Positions 4,041 through 57,885 of a stretch of DNA of 64,000 nucleotides are shown here, one piece after another. The position numbers and the translations under genes are program-made. The first letter of the stretch is position 1, and every line of letters begins with the position of its first letter. This stretch comes from Longitalea luteola (lineage in GTDB: Bacteria; Bacteroidota; Bacteroidia; Chitinophagales; Chitinophagaceae). The notes under the pieces are model-generated. The model worked only from the letters and a program-made list of their open reading frames with translations, made no database searches and had not been told where the DNA came from. The DNA lies in the NCBI RefSeq assembly GCF_017356035.1, contig NZ_JAFIQX010000015.1:1-64000 (forward strand). The letters run 5' to 3'.

Positions 4041-4236
4041 CCGGAAGCCCGAAGCCTAAAGCCGGAAGTCAGAAATCGGAAGTCAGAAGCCGGAAGCCGG
4101 AAACCTGAAGTCGGAAGTCAGAAGAGACTTAATGCTTAACACTCTTCATATTATTTCAATATATTGAATTTCAGACCTCGGACCTCAGACCTCAGACGTC
4201 TGACCTCAGACCTCAGACCTCAGACCTGAGACCTCA
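4041..4236. repeat. Inverted-arm heptamer array (GAAGTCG / CAGACCT words)
   Basis: The left arm at 4041-4126 is a run of degenerate heptamers of the type GGAAGTC, AGAAGCC and GAAGTCG. The right arm at 4171-4236 is a run of CAGACCT and CAGACGT words, broadly the reverse complement of the left arm. The ~45 bp centre is AT-rich and unrelated. The whole could fold into a long imperfect hairpin. It lies just upstream of the divergent exonuclease gene. The same words recur inside valS (6184-6258). Confidence 0.8.
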
Positions 4237-5104: not shown

Positions 5105-5186
5105 GCCTACCCCCTAACGCCCTAAAGGGTGAATTAAACGAATACCCAAACGAATACCTCTGCCCATTTAACTTCAACCCGCCCCC

Positions 5187-5476
5187 CTGTAACCTGCAAC
5201 CTGAAACCTGAAACCTGTAACCTGTAACTTGCATGCCCTACAACCTGAAACCTGTAACCTGCAACCTGAAACCTGTAACCTGTAACTTGCATGCCCTACA
5301 ACCTGAAACCTGTAACCTGCAACCTGTAACCCTGCAACCTGTAACCTGCAACCTGTAACTTGCATGCCCTGCAACCTGCAACCTGCAACCTGTAACCTGT
5401 AACCCCTGCAACCTGTAACCTGTAACCCCTGCAACCTGAAACCTGAAACCTGCAACCTGTAACCTGAAACCCCTGC
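5187..5476. repeat. Heptamer array of AACCTGN words upstream of valS
   Basis: About 290 bp made almost wholly of heptamers AACCTGT, AACCTGA and AACCTGC. They are interrupted by a longer unit containing AACTTGCATGCCCTACAAC that recurs (5226-5244, 5284-5302, with a variant near 5357-5375). All words have the same orientation, unlike the inverted arrays elsewhere. Minus-strand open frames through it (runs of QVAGCRLQ) are artefacts of the repeat. Confidence 0.9.
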
Positions 5477-5565: not shown

Positions 5566-8283
5566 ATGGAACTAAGCAAAAACTACCAGCCCAAAGCGGT
5601 GGAGGACAAATGGAGTAAGCATTGGAAATCAAAAAGATATTTCAACAGCACGCCCGACGATCGAAAACCGTTCACTGTGGTGATCCCCCCGCCCAACGTT
5701 ACCGGGGTATTACATATGGGTCATACCCTCAACGAAACGGTGCAGGACATTCTCGTGCGTAAAGCCCGCATGAGCGGCTTCAATGCCTGCTGGGTGCCAG
5801 GCAGCGACCATGCCTCTATTGCTACCGAAAGCAAGGTGGTTCAAATGCTCGAAAAAGTAAATGGCATTAAAAAAAGCGACCTCACCCGCGAAGAGTTCCT
5901 GAAACATGCTTTTGAATGGAAGGAAAAATACGGCGGCATCATTTACCACCAGATCGAAAAACTGGGCTGCAGTGTCGACTGGGACCGGGTTGCTTTTACC
6001 ATGGATCATGACTACTACAAAGCCGTTATCAGGGTCTTCGTTGACCTCTACAATAAAAAAATGATCTATCGCGGCGCCCGCATGATCAACTGGGACCCCG
6101 CCGCAAAAACCGCCCTCAGCGATGAAGAGGTGGAATATAAAGAAGTACAGGGGACACTGTATTACGTAAAATATGCTGTTCAATCCGAAGCCGGAAGTCG
6201 GAAGTCAGAAACCGCAAATACGGGCACTTCTGACCTCAGACCTCAGACTTCAGACTTCATCATCATTGCCACCCAGCGCCCCGAAACCATTATGGGCGAT
6301 ACCGCCGTTTGCGTTAACCCGAATGATGAACGCTTTGCCCACTTAAAAGGCAAAAAAGTAATTGTGCCCCTGGTGAACCGGGCCGTACCGGTAATTTTTG
6401 ATGAATATGTTGACCCTGCCTTTGGTACCGGCGCCCTGAAAGTGACTCCGGCGCATGACATCAACGACTATAACCTGGGTTTAAAACATAATCTGCCTGT
6501 TATTGACACCCTCAATGAAGACGGCACCCTGAATGAAGCCGCTGAGGTTTGCGTGGGTATGGACCGCTTCGAGGCGCGTAAAAAAGTGGTGGAAATGCTG
6601 CAGGAGCAGGGTCTGCTCGTGAAAGAAGAAGAGTACACTACCCGCCTGGGCTTCTCACAGCGCAGTCTGGCCGTTGTTGAACCACGCATTTCTACCCAGT
6701 GGTTTGTGACCATGCGCTCCCTGGCCGATAAAGCCCTGGCAGCGGTTAGCAGTGGTGAAGTAAGGATCCACCCCGGCGATAAATTCATGGCTACGTACCG
6801 CTACTGGCTCGAAAATGTAAAAGACTGGTGTATCAGCCGTCAGTTATGGTGGGGCCAGCGTATTCCCGCCTGGTACGACGACAATGGCAATTGCTATGTA
6901 GCCGAAACGGAAGAAGAAGCAGTACGCATGTGGGCAGAAAACATCCAGCCCGGCGCTACCGGCTCAATAACCAATTCTCCTTACACCAATCACCCGCTCC
7001 GCCAGGACGACGACGTGCTCGACACCTGGTTCTCAAGCTGGTTATGGCCTATAGAAGTATTTAAAGGCATTACCTATCCCGGTAATCCCGATATAAATTA
7101 TTACTATCCCACGTCGGTGCTGGTAACCGGACAGGATATCATTTTCTTCTGGGTGGCGCGAATGATCATGGCCGGCATGGAATACATGAACGTAAAACCG
7201 TTCAGCGATGTGTACTTTACCGGTATGGTGCGCGATAAACTGGGCAGAAAAATGAGTAAACAGCTCGGCAATTCACCCGACCTGCTCATGCTGATCGATA
7301 AATACGGCGCCGATGCCGTTCGCTTCGGCATCATGATCTCCTCCCCTGCCGGTAATGACCTGCTGTTCGACGAAACCTCGCCTGAACAGGGCAGCAAATT
7401 CAATAACAAGATGTGGAATGCCCTGAAACTGGTGAAAATGTGGGAGGCAAAGGTCAGCGAGCGACCTTCAACAACGAATGGCCAGGCGCAGTTCGCCATC
7501 AACTGGTTTGAAAACAGGTTACAACAAGCCAAGGCCGACATTGAGCAACTGTACAAAGACTTTAAGCTCAGCGAAGGATTAAAAACACTTTACTCCCTCA
7601 TCTGGGACGATTTCTGCAGCTGGTACCTGGAATGGGTAAAGCCCGGCATGGATCAGCCTATCGATAAAGCAGTATACGATAAAACCGTTTCCTTCTTTAC
7701 CGATCTGATGCAAATGTTGCATCCGTATATGCCTTTCATAACCGAAGAAATTTATCAATTGCTGGCGCCCCGGGCGGAAGACCTGTGCATAAAACAATTT
7801 GCCCCCCTGCAAAACACCGATGCTATTGTATTGCGGGAAGGACAATTGCTGAAAGATGTAATTACCGGCTTACGCGATGTACGGGTTAAGAACCAGATCA
7901 AACCAAAAGAACCGATCAAACTATACATCCAGAGCGAAAACAATGAGCTGTACAAAGCCATTGAGCCCATTCTGAACAAGCAGGTGAATATTGAAGAATT
8001 AACATTTGTTACTGAGCCTGTAGCGCAAACCATTACAGCGGTGATCGGCAAGGACAAATTCTACATTGAGACTGAAGGCGCTGTAGATACCAGCGCGCAA
8101 AAAGAGGAGTTGTTAAAGGAGCTCGATCGCCTGAAAAAATTCCTTGAATCAGTTAATAAAAAGTTAAGCAATGAAAGGTTCATACAATCTGCACGGCCGG
8201 ATGTCGTTCAATTAGAGCAAAAGAAAAAACTGGATGCCGAAGAAAAGATTAAGGTCCTTGAAAGTAGCCTTCAAAACCTCTAA
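5566..8283 (+). CDS. valS: Valine--tRNA ligase
   Basis: 905 residues, a class I synthetase charging tRNA-Val and editing threonyl-tRNA. The HIGH motif is HMGH in PPPNVTGVLHMGHTLN (about 44-59) and KMSKS is KMSKQ in GRKMSKQLGN. The editing domain has ATQRPETIMGDTAV, and the C-terminus is the usual coiled-coil arm (about 830-905). Residues about 207-231 (SEAGSRKSET...PQTSDF) are encoded by an inserted repeat at 6184-6258 of the GAAGTCG/CAGACCT type found in intergenic DNA. The insertion is in frame and sits in a loop just before the editing-domain ATQRPET strand, where length varies in the family, so the enzyme is probably still active. Confidence 0.98.
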   Translation: MELSKNYQPKAVEDKWSKHWKSKRYFNSTPDDRKPFTVVIPPPNVTGVLHMGHTLNETVQDILVRKARMSGFNACWVPGSDHASIATESKVVQMLEKVNGIKKSDLTREEFLKHAFEWKEKYGGIIYHQIEKLGCSVDWDRVAFTMDHDYYKAVIRVFVDLYNKKMIYRGARMINWDPAAKTALSDEEVEYKEVQGTLYYVKYAVQSEAGSRKSETANTGTSDLRPQTSDFIIIATQRPETIMGDTAVCVNPNDERFAHLKGKKVIVPLVNRAVPVIFDEYVDPAFGTGALKVTPAHDINDYNLGLKHNLPVIDTLNEDGTLNEAAEVCVGMDRFEARKKVVEMLQEQGLLVKEEEYTTRLGFSQRSLAVVEPRISTQWFVTMRSLADKALAAVSSGEVRIHPGDKFMATYRYWLENVKDWCISRQLWWGQRIPAWYDDNGNCYVAETEEEAVRMWAENIQPGATGSITNSPYTNHPLRQDDDVLDTWFSSWLWPIEVFKGITYPGNPDINYYYPTSVLVTGQDIIFFWVARMIMAGMEYMNVKPFSDVYFTGMVRDKLGRKMSKQLGNSPDLLMLIDKYGADAVRFGIMISSPAGNDLLFDETSPEQGSKFNNKMWNALKLVKMWEAKVSERPSTTNGQAQFAINWFENRLQQAKADIEQLYKDFKLSEGLKTLYSLIWDDFCSWYLEWVKPGMDQPIDKAVYDKTVSFFTDLMQMLHPYMPFITEEIYQLLAPRAEDLCIKQFAPLQNTDAIVLREGQLLKDVITGLRDVRVKNQIKPKEPIKLYIQSENNELYKAIEPILNKQVNIEELTFVTEPVAQTITAVIGKDKFYIETEGAVDTSAQKEELLKELDRLKKFLESVNKKLSNERFIQSARPDVVQLEQKKKLDAEEKIKVLESSLQNL
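6184..6258. repeat. Inverted-arm repeat inserted in frame within valS
   Basis: The left arm at 6186-6210 holds GGAAGTCGGAAGTCAGAA. The right arm at 6227-6258 holds CTTCTGACCTCAGACCTCAG and two further CAGACTT words. The centre is about 16 nt. The words match those of the array at 4041-4236. The insert is 75 bp (25 codons), keeps the reading frame and contains no stop. Confidence 0.85.
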
Positions 8284-14240: not shown

Positions 14241-14424
14241 TGGTTTGTGGTTTGTGGTTTATAGTTTATGGTTTATGGTTTATAGTTTTAGCCTCGCGAC
14301 TAATAGCTAACTAAATAACTAAATAACTGAATAACTGAATAACTGAATAACTGAACAACTGAACAACTGAGAACTTTGAACTTTGAACTTTGAACTGTGA
14401 ACTGTGAACTGTGAACTTTGAACT
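14241..14424. repeat. Arrays of GGTTTNT, TAACTGAA and GAACTTT words
   Basis: Three word families sit side by side in the convergent gap after the response regulator: GGTTTGT/GGTTTAT (14241-14287), AATAACTG octamers (about 14308-14372) and GAACTTT/GAACTGT heptamers (about 14373-14424). The last reaches the stop codon of the minus-strand gene. They do not pair with one another as clearly as the arms of the other arrays. Confidence 0.8.
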
Positions 14425-17303: not shown

Positions 17304-17920
17304 CGAGATTTTGGGATTTCGAGATTTTGGGATTTCGAGATTTTGGGATTTCGAGATTTCTGATTTTGAGATTTCTGATTTGGGATCTTGCGGCTGCGAA
17401 ATGGAGGTATTTGAAGTTGAGTCGGAGTTCCGGCTTATAAGCAAATCTCAAAATCTCGAAATCCCGAAATCAGAAATGGATTATTAGTTTGGGATCTTGT
17501 GGCTGCGAAATGGAGGTATTTGAAGTTGAGTCGGAGTTCAGGCTTATAAGCAAATCTCGAAATCCCGAAATCCCGAAATCAGAAATGGATTTCTAATTTG
17601 GGATTTTGCAGCTGCGAATTTGAAGTATTTGAAGTTAGTCGGAGTTCCGGCTTATAAGCAAATCTCGAAATCTCGAAATCCCGAAATCAGAAATGGATTT
17701 CTAATTTGGGATCTTGTGGCTGCGAAATGGAGGTATTTGAAGTTGAGTCGGACTTCCGGCTTATAAGCAAATCTCAAAATCTCGAAATCCCGAAATCAGA
17801 AATGGATTATTAGTTTGGGATTTTGCGGCTGCGAATTTGAAGTATTTGAAGTTAGTGGGAGTTCCGGCTTATAAGCAAATCTCGAAATCCCGAAATCAGA
17901 AATCAGAAATGGATTTCTGT
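17304..17920. repeat. Five tandem ~109-bp units with GATTTCGG-word arms
   Basis: An opening array of GATTTTGG/GATTTCGA octamers (17304-17380) is followed by five near-identical units starting at about 17381, 17490, 17599, 17707 and 17816 (period 108-109 bp). Each unit has a core (GGCTGCGAA...GGCTTATAAGC) followed by words CGAAATCC and CGAAATCAGAAATGG, complementary to the opening array. Units differ by a few substitutions and small indels. The period is not a multiple of three and all frames are broken, so it is not coding. It fills the divergent gap between the barrel-like gene and prsW. Confidence 0.9.
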
Positions 17921-57439: not shown

Positions 57440-57885
57440 TATTGTCACGAACGGGATGTACAAAAAAATCGTGAAGAAGGAACCATCCAGGTTTCTCTGC
57501 TGTGGCCGTAATACGACCACCCAGGTTTCCAATATCATGATCCGGTCTTCACGAATGGTGAAGCTATTCTCCATGAAGATGGAATCAAGCAGGTTTCTCT
57601 GTCGTGGAACCTCCGCCAACTGGCAGAGCACACTCAGGTTTCCGATATCATGATCCGGTCTTCACGGATGGTGAAGCTAAATATCCGTGAAGAAGGAACC
57701 ATCCAGGTTTCTCTGCTGTGGCCGTAATTACAACCACCCAGGTTTCCGATATTATGATTCAGATCCTCACGGAGGTGAAGAATATTCGTGAAGAAGGAAC
57801 CATCCAGGTTTCTCTGTTGTGGCCGTAACTACTGCCACCCAGGTTTCCGATACCATGATTCAAATCCTCACGAACGTAAAAGAGA
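57440..57885. repeat. Four tandem ~101-114-bp units between CHAT and anti-sigma genes
   Basis: Units begin near 57471, 57573, 57687 and 57788. Each has GTGAAGAAGGAACCATCCAG, GTTTCTCTGCTGTGG, CACCCAGGTTTCC and GATATCATGATCC-like blocks, then a short inverted pair around CTTCAC...GTGAAG. The second unit is the most diverged. Unit length is not a multiple of three and frames are broken, so it is not a protein repeat. It lies between the two convergent gene groups of the CHAT region. Confidence 0.85.

Follow-up and report, generated by a model that had tools for sequence, protein, structure and literature searches.

A heptamer array in frame in the valyl-tRNA synthetase gene of Longitalea luteola, and related arrays in enzyme loops of the Chitinophagaceae

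The valyl-tRNA synthetase (ValRS) gene of Longitalea luteola, a bacterium of soil, carries 75 bp of tandem heptamers in frame, within a loop of the enzyme. We consider it probable (roughly 85%) that a dispersed, polarised heptamer-array element has been copied in frame into this gene, an element that spreads at the DNA level and survives where the reading frame and the fold tolerate it. The array is an insertion, its word family is dispersed through a genome that favours its own words, arrays of other words recur in the same loop of related species, and paired arms keep a fixed polarity. These results support, with qualifications, an earlier sequence-only reading of this DNA, which had not noticed the other heptamer words that many relatives carry in the same loop.

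The valS insert and its close relatives

The valS product has the Pfam domain set expected of a ValRS (tRNA-synt_1, Anticodon_1 and Val_tRNA-synt_C), and the ValRS structure 1gax is both its best solved relative and the best solved match of its predicted model. The sequence-only reading held that the reading frame is kept across the array, and it is: the gene is a single uninterrupted ORF. Features are given below in the coordinates of the window, the whole 64,000-nucleotide stretch of DNA analysed here.

5566..8283, + strand: valS, valyl-tRNA synthetase, an intact uninterrupted ORF of 905 aa
6184..6258, + strand: in-frame heptamer-array insert, codons 207-231 (from codon shuffles, four close relatives without the array, and words in common with an intergenic array)
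6187..6210, + strand: left arm of the insert, G-bearing heptamers GAAGCCG GAAGTCG GAAGTCA GAA (from the sequence; stem partner detected)
6226..6259, + strand: right arm of the insert, C-bearing heptamers (tandem-repeat finder rows 6226-6259 and 6232-6259; stem partner detected)
4041..4124, + strand: left arm of an intergenic array of the same family
4171..4236, + strand: right arm of the same intergenic array

The stretch 6184-6258 codes for SEAGSRKSETANTGTSDLRPQTSDF, immediately N-terminal of the strand that runs into ATQRPET, and the right-arm units GACCTCA GACCTCA GACTTCA GACTTCA occupy 6232-6259. Two words are common to valS and the intergenic array without mismatch: a left word of 17 nt, GAAGTCGGAAGTCAGAA (6194-6210 in valS, 4107-4123 in the array), and a right word of 20 nt, TCTGACCTCAGACCTCAGAC (6229-6248 and 4199-4218). 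The earlier claim that words of the intergenic array lie inside valS is thus right about the family, while the words then quoted each carry one mismatch (at base 1 of the left and base 2 of the right). No 15-mer of the 4041-4236 array was found elsewhere in the 64 kb beyond valS, on either strand. When the codons of the valS loop were shuffled 500 times, no shuffle matched its period-7/8 self-match and none matched its self-complementary stem. The opposed arms described earlier are present, though their complementarity is imperfect. Folded as RNA they make a weak hairpin, with z values of -2.2 in isolation, -0.93 in the context of the flanks and -1.8 against codon shuffles. A pure 7-bp array is read as the same cyclic heptapeptide in any frame; for valS the peptides are EVGSQKS-like and DLRPQTS-like, both stop-free, whereas GACCTCA reversed contains TGA.

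In the predicted structure (mean pLDDT 77.7), a strand at residues 189-206 leads into an unstructured turn and then a strand at 231-236, with residues 209-227 below pLDDT 50. The insert lengthens the turn of this β-hairpin, which lies where the CP1 editing domain begins, and is probably neutral for ValRS. Just upstream of valS lies a 286-bp array of another heptamer, CCTGNAA (5186-5471), which opens a frame of 93 aa on the minus strand, probably a spurious ORF.

Alignment with close relatives had been set beforehand as the test of insertion. From 110 loci we obtained, with the window, 101 DNA-distinct rows. One of these, L081, is the valS of the window itself, which leaves 100 distinct genes; L081 was excluded from the loop and tree counts. 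The window ValRS, 90-91% identical to that of Longitalea arenae, has 30 residues between LYYVKY and IATQRPET. The same span is 15-16 residues long and heptamer-free, with both flanks intact, in L. arenae, Niastella sp. OAS944, N. yeongjuensis and N. vici. As four close relatives have such loops, the 75 bp are an insertion, and the test came out as the sequence-only reading had anticipated. Codons 207-231 are indeed array, but relative to the 15-16-residue loops the protein has gained a net 14-15 residues and not the 25 or so first described; the array therefore also overwrote part of the older loop.

The loops of N. populi and N. caeni are 20 residues long, with a period-7/8 signal of another word and no stem (p 0.2), and by alignment the turn of Thermus ValRS is shorter. 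Since lengths differ among the relatives and Thermus, the loop is a tolerant site. The observation that would have spoken against an insertion, the same residues in all relatives, was not made: loop length and sequence differ from the window in six of the six closest. The target-site duplication that the alignment had been expected to reveal was not recognisable there, the loop itself being hypervariable, and we found no clean empty site; at 13 aligned intergenic gaps between this genome (G000) and G071, whose valS DNA and coordinates are those of L. arenae, none was seen by eye, the flanks having diverged too far. In L. arenae and N. vici (loci L001 and L005) the 'empty' valS loop holds a different dispersed palindrome, CCCCTTTAGGGGCCGGGG. 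It is present at low copy (0-12 matches per genome in six genomes, ≤1 mismatch), and this genome has it at G000:C11:751156.

Recurrence in ValRS loops and in other genes

Among the 13 distinct ValRS loops of at least 25 aa, 11 pass both codon-shuffle tests (p ≤ 0.002), and they do so with differing words, for example GTGAAAC/CTCACGT in L041, GATGACA/GTCATCC in L086 and AGTTGGC/GCCAACA in L092; L041 and L045 are related and have words in common. Codon shuffles detected no heptamer pattern in the remaining two long loops (L030 and L048), and of 42 loops of 13-18 aa, three and two reached p < 0.05 in the two tests, which is chance level. The RNA of some loops folds beyond codon-shuffled versions (z -5.9 for L019 and -4.6 for L086). 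We placed the positive genes, namely the 11 long loops with N. populi and N. caeni, on a FastTree phylogeny of 100 genes built without both valS loops; at least 10 state changes, gains and losses taken together, are needed for these 13. In this scoring L002 and L006, with a period signal only, counted as positive, and L050 and L075 (period-7/8 p < 0.01; loops of 10 and 16 aa) as non-positive.

Near residue 628 of the window protein, a second loop of ValRS reaches p < 0.01 in 21 of the 101 rows, where about one would be expected; the window's own second loop (codons ~628-637) gives no signal (p = 0.19). In-frame arrays in this loop include those of L020, L031, L060, L062, L064, L069 and L070. 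The two loops lie ~390 codons apart, and across the 15 genomes with a period signal in the first, a 9-mer common to both was found in 5 of 15 same-genome pairs vs 14 of 210 cross-genome pairs (p = 0.004). We also searched the flanks of valS as a source of words, using 21 loops of at least 19 aa from genes other than the window's valS and L081. Matches to loop 10-mers within a few kb were mostly few and near the shuffle mean, L020 being the clear exception (85 matches vs 1.3), and several of the flank matches fell in the second valS loop.

A census of the valS word family yielded 54 clusters across the genome; of the two routes named earlier, active spread of the repeat or strong local expansion, this speaks for spread and not for local expansion alone. 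Nine of the clusters lie well inside conserved ORFs (valS, ribF, ABC-F, tilS, gltX, metG, dnaX, a DEXH helicase and paaE), and a further seven overlap open sequence that precedes a probable start codon; comparison beyond this genome covered valS, ribF, ABC-F, tilS, gltX and paaE. For ribF, the riboflavin kinase loop is positive in 9 of 30 loci (p ≤ 0.004), and for ABC-F the linker in 6 of the 20 loci examined (p < 0.01; 30 were fetched and ten, L276-L285, stayed unaligned), with this genome included in both counts. The tilS loop that precedes the TAHH motif has an array, of varied words, in all nine genomes of the genus-level group and in none of four outside it. In these nine (L290 and L326-L333) heptamer arrays fill the loop, and its two halves often carry different words. 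Three of 13 rows are positive in the mutL linker; mutL is a mismatch-repair gene, and L324, L350 and L356 carry an in-frame GGCAATC-type heptamer array there.

Two of the census matches fared otherwise. We rejected gltX as an insertion, since all 11 complete relatives align with gaps of at most one residue (L349 is truncated), and paaE is doubtful as one, with no sizeable insert and an NCBIfam length of 356 residues vs 352 positions. In another genus, about 10 GAAGTCA units on the minus strand (G004:C1:3202243-3202324) end just before the gltX match at 3202327. Orthologue pairs were also compared for internal inserts of at least 7 aa: with the fetched part of G071, 101 pairs gave three, of which two are heptameric (valS here, ribF in G071), and with the fetched part of G121, 157 pairs gave six, one heptameric and five not.

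Genome background, word vocabulary and arm polarity

We found 132 arrays with 2-12-bp units in 956 kb of this genome, and 127 of them have period 7 (71 arrays) or period 8 (56); periods 2-6 and 9 are absent, and shuffled sequence produced no arrays. Most of the period-7 arrays (58 of 71) and every one of the 56 period-8 arrays lie outside ORFs of at least 100 aa, the latter though 50 of the 56 are open in some frame. A like bias towards period 7 is seen elsewhere: 200 kb of G121 held 12 arrays of period 7, three of period 8 and one each of periods 4, 6 and 11, and loci of other genera (808 kb, with their valS loops) held 25 of period 7, two of period 8, one of period 3 and three of period 11. 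Among intergenic gaps of at least 150 bp, arrays occupy 20 of 45 convergent, 14 of 78 divergent and 33 of 165 tandem gaps, a convergent excess (p = 0.001). The window also contains an octamer array, TAACTGAA, at 14308-14370, which lies beside TGGTTTA and GAACTTT heptamer arrays and is akin to the published TAACTGA repeats, and longer tandem repeats of 109 bp (with AAATCTCG octamers) and 101 bp, at 17370-17918 and 57470-57872.

The vocabulary of words was compared by searching for three of them in eight genomes, allowing ≤2 mismatches. This genome's word had 68 matches in its own genome, 11 in G004 (10 of them in one array), one each in G071 and G009 and none in the other four; the G004 loop word had nine in G004 and 0-1 in each of the seven others; and the G016 loop word had nine in G016, three in G071 and none in six others. 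The vocabulary is genome-biased, each of the three tested words being commonest in its own genome. A backwards-pattern control gave 106 matches in this genome, a count unusable as a null there because the pattern reads, by eye, as another resident heptamer word, of the AAGGCTGA type. The control of an earlier word-family search stood at 25 vs 84.

Two-armed clusters make up 26 of the 54 in the census, all with GAAGTC followed by GACTTC and none in the reverse order; the other 28 are single-armed at the threshold used. With pair classes defined after the pattern was seen and 11 repeat loci left out, inverted-word neighbours across families and genomes ran from G-bearing to C-bearing arm in 29 cases and the reverse way in one, six having no opposite skew. 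The corresponding counts were 7 vs 2 for unrelated-word pairs (four undecided; one of the seven is a single family on inspection) and 3 vs 4 for direct-word pairs (45 undecided). At wider spacing the ratio was 19:1 in this genome, 2:0 in G121, 4:1 in G071 and 5:0 in other genera. Nine of 11 valS loops follow the G-then-C rule, L046 and L019 being undecided, and several tilS loops, judged by eye, pair arms of different words in the same order. Because the rule is the same whichever strand is read, it cannot be a product of replication direction, and the different-word pairs in tilS suggest that the arms were made independently, each with its G-word pointing inward.

It is conceivable, as a long shot, that such pairs are scars of break healing, in which G-bearing repeats are added to both 3' ends of a broken chromosome before the ends are joined, by an enzyme that might be a reverse transcriptase carrying a 7-8-nt RNA template. 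Healing of this kind would produce a G-arm followed by a C-arm, arms of differing words and common single arms. Vertebrates are reported to have inserts made by telomerase at breaks (PMC2246262, PMC8537989), and break healing, if true, would give bacteria their own version of interstitial telomeric sequences, one that remodels essential enzymes.

Origin of the insert and its relation to known repeats

As we picture it, the element is built of a single arm or a pair, each made of tandem 7-bp units (8-bp ones elsewhere), and, where two arms of inverted words are present, the G-bearing arm comes first and the C-bearing arm second, on either strand. Each genome has word families of its own, dispersed among many intergenic sites. 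A process acting on the DNA, with no connection to ValRS, would place arms at new sites, the copying perhaps proceeding by polymerase slippage with template switching or by repeat addition at breaks. Most coding insertions would be lost, as we infer from the rarity of coding copies, and copies in genes would persist only with a frame-keeping length, a stop-free orientation of the word and a flexible surface loop. The sequence-only reading had selection keeping frame and loop position; both are kept, yet this is most simply seen as purifying selection on valS and not as selection for the insert.

Of the other explanations, local growth survives best, though we think it unlikely. A heptamer-like seed in the loop would have expanded in place by replication slippage, with nothing copied from elsewhere, which would suit the differing arm lengths among species, the over-representation of heptameric repeats in many bacteria (reported in the part of PMC4692102 drawn on) and the finding that the loop words of other genera are mostly unenriched within a few kb of valS. 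It fits poorly with exact words of 17 and 20 nt in common with an array 2 kb off and 54 clusters of the family, with genome-biased words, with two opposed arms of fixed polarity, and with words common to two ValRS loops ~390 codons apart.

A transposase-borne element, MITE- or REP-like and with heptamer-filled terminal inverted repeats, ranks next and seems to us improbable. The lack of a target-site duplication recognisable between such diverged flanks, the abundance of single-arm clusters (28 of 54 at the threshold used), the variation of words by genome and the ability of arms with differing words to pair (in tilS loops and in nine opposite-skew unrelated pairs, one of them a single family) all count against such an element, even if dispersal, inverted arms and fixed polarity speak for it. 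We hold it very improbable that the insert was kept for a function, as a useful mRNA hairpin or protein loop that tunes, for example, translation or editing: the window's own hairpin is weak in context (z -0.93), words and peptides vary by species, four near kin do without the insert and the loop is predicted to be disordered, and set against this are the repeated use of the same loop and the several loops, such as L019 and L086, that out-fold codon-shuffled versions. An ancestral loop conserved at the protein level has virtually no chance, since the alignment rules it out, with length and sequence differing in all six closest relatives and the signal sitting at the DNA level (codon shuffles), however old the loop position itself may be.

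A dispersed, polarised array element of the kind we favour has known relatives. The arrays have the head-to-tail 7-bp unit and the many dispersed, mainly intergenic copies of bacterial heptameric tandem repeats (SSR/STRR), and are a variant of that known kind. Vioque reportedly described, in 1997, STRR heptamers of heterocystous cyanobacteria with copies inside the RNase P RNA gene. Both cases have short tandem repeats within an essential gene, which there is an RNA gene and here takes an in-frame protein insert.

TAACTGA heptamers occur as direct repeats in Beggiatoaceae, cyanobacteria and some Bacteroidetes (MacGregor 2015, PMC4679880). In the parts of that paper considered here they resemble our arrays in their 7-bp unit, in their many dispersed, short, mostly intergenic and strain-specific arrays and in occasional ORF copies, and they show 7-nt indels between strains. 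Unlike them, our arrays have words that vary by genome and opposed arms of fixed polarity; and whereas TAACTGA insertions are described there as lying mainly at the protein periphery, ours recur in loops in the middle of conserved enzymes. The word TAACTGA itself is not in the valS array, whose words are GAAGTCN/GACCTCA. The GGGNATC heptamers of Xanthomonas and Nostoc are likewise dispersed SSRs, over-represented in non-coding DNA, but are a single G-quadruplex-type word for which the sections consulted describe no opposed arms (PMC4692102). Regulatory roles have been suggested for bacterial heptamer repeats in the available portions of these two papers (PMC4679880, PMC4692102).

The in-frame insertion of repeat DNA into protein genes whose function is known, in a way that the fold apparently tolerates, has a counterpart in the Rickettsia palindromic elements (Ogata 2000, 2002; as relayed in part by PMC10969869), and valS, ribF and tilS show it here. 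Those elements are described as ~150 bp long, in ten families and with a conserved peptide, unlike 75 bp of tandem heptamers whose words vary by species. In the open-licence PMC literature we found nothing that directly anticipates heptamer arrays recurring in frame in Chitinophagaceae, the polarity rule, or the same enzyme loops being colonised repeatedly by genome-specific words.

The arrays show that short repeats whose unit is not a triplet can add protein sequence to core enzymes time and again, at the same loops in many lineages, with words that each genome favours for itself. They amount to a natural experiment on which protein sites accept insertions, and their polarity rule is a constraint on any mechanism proposed for bacterial heptamer repeats.
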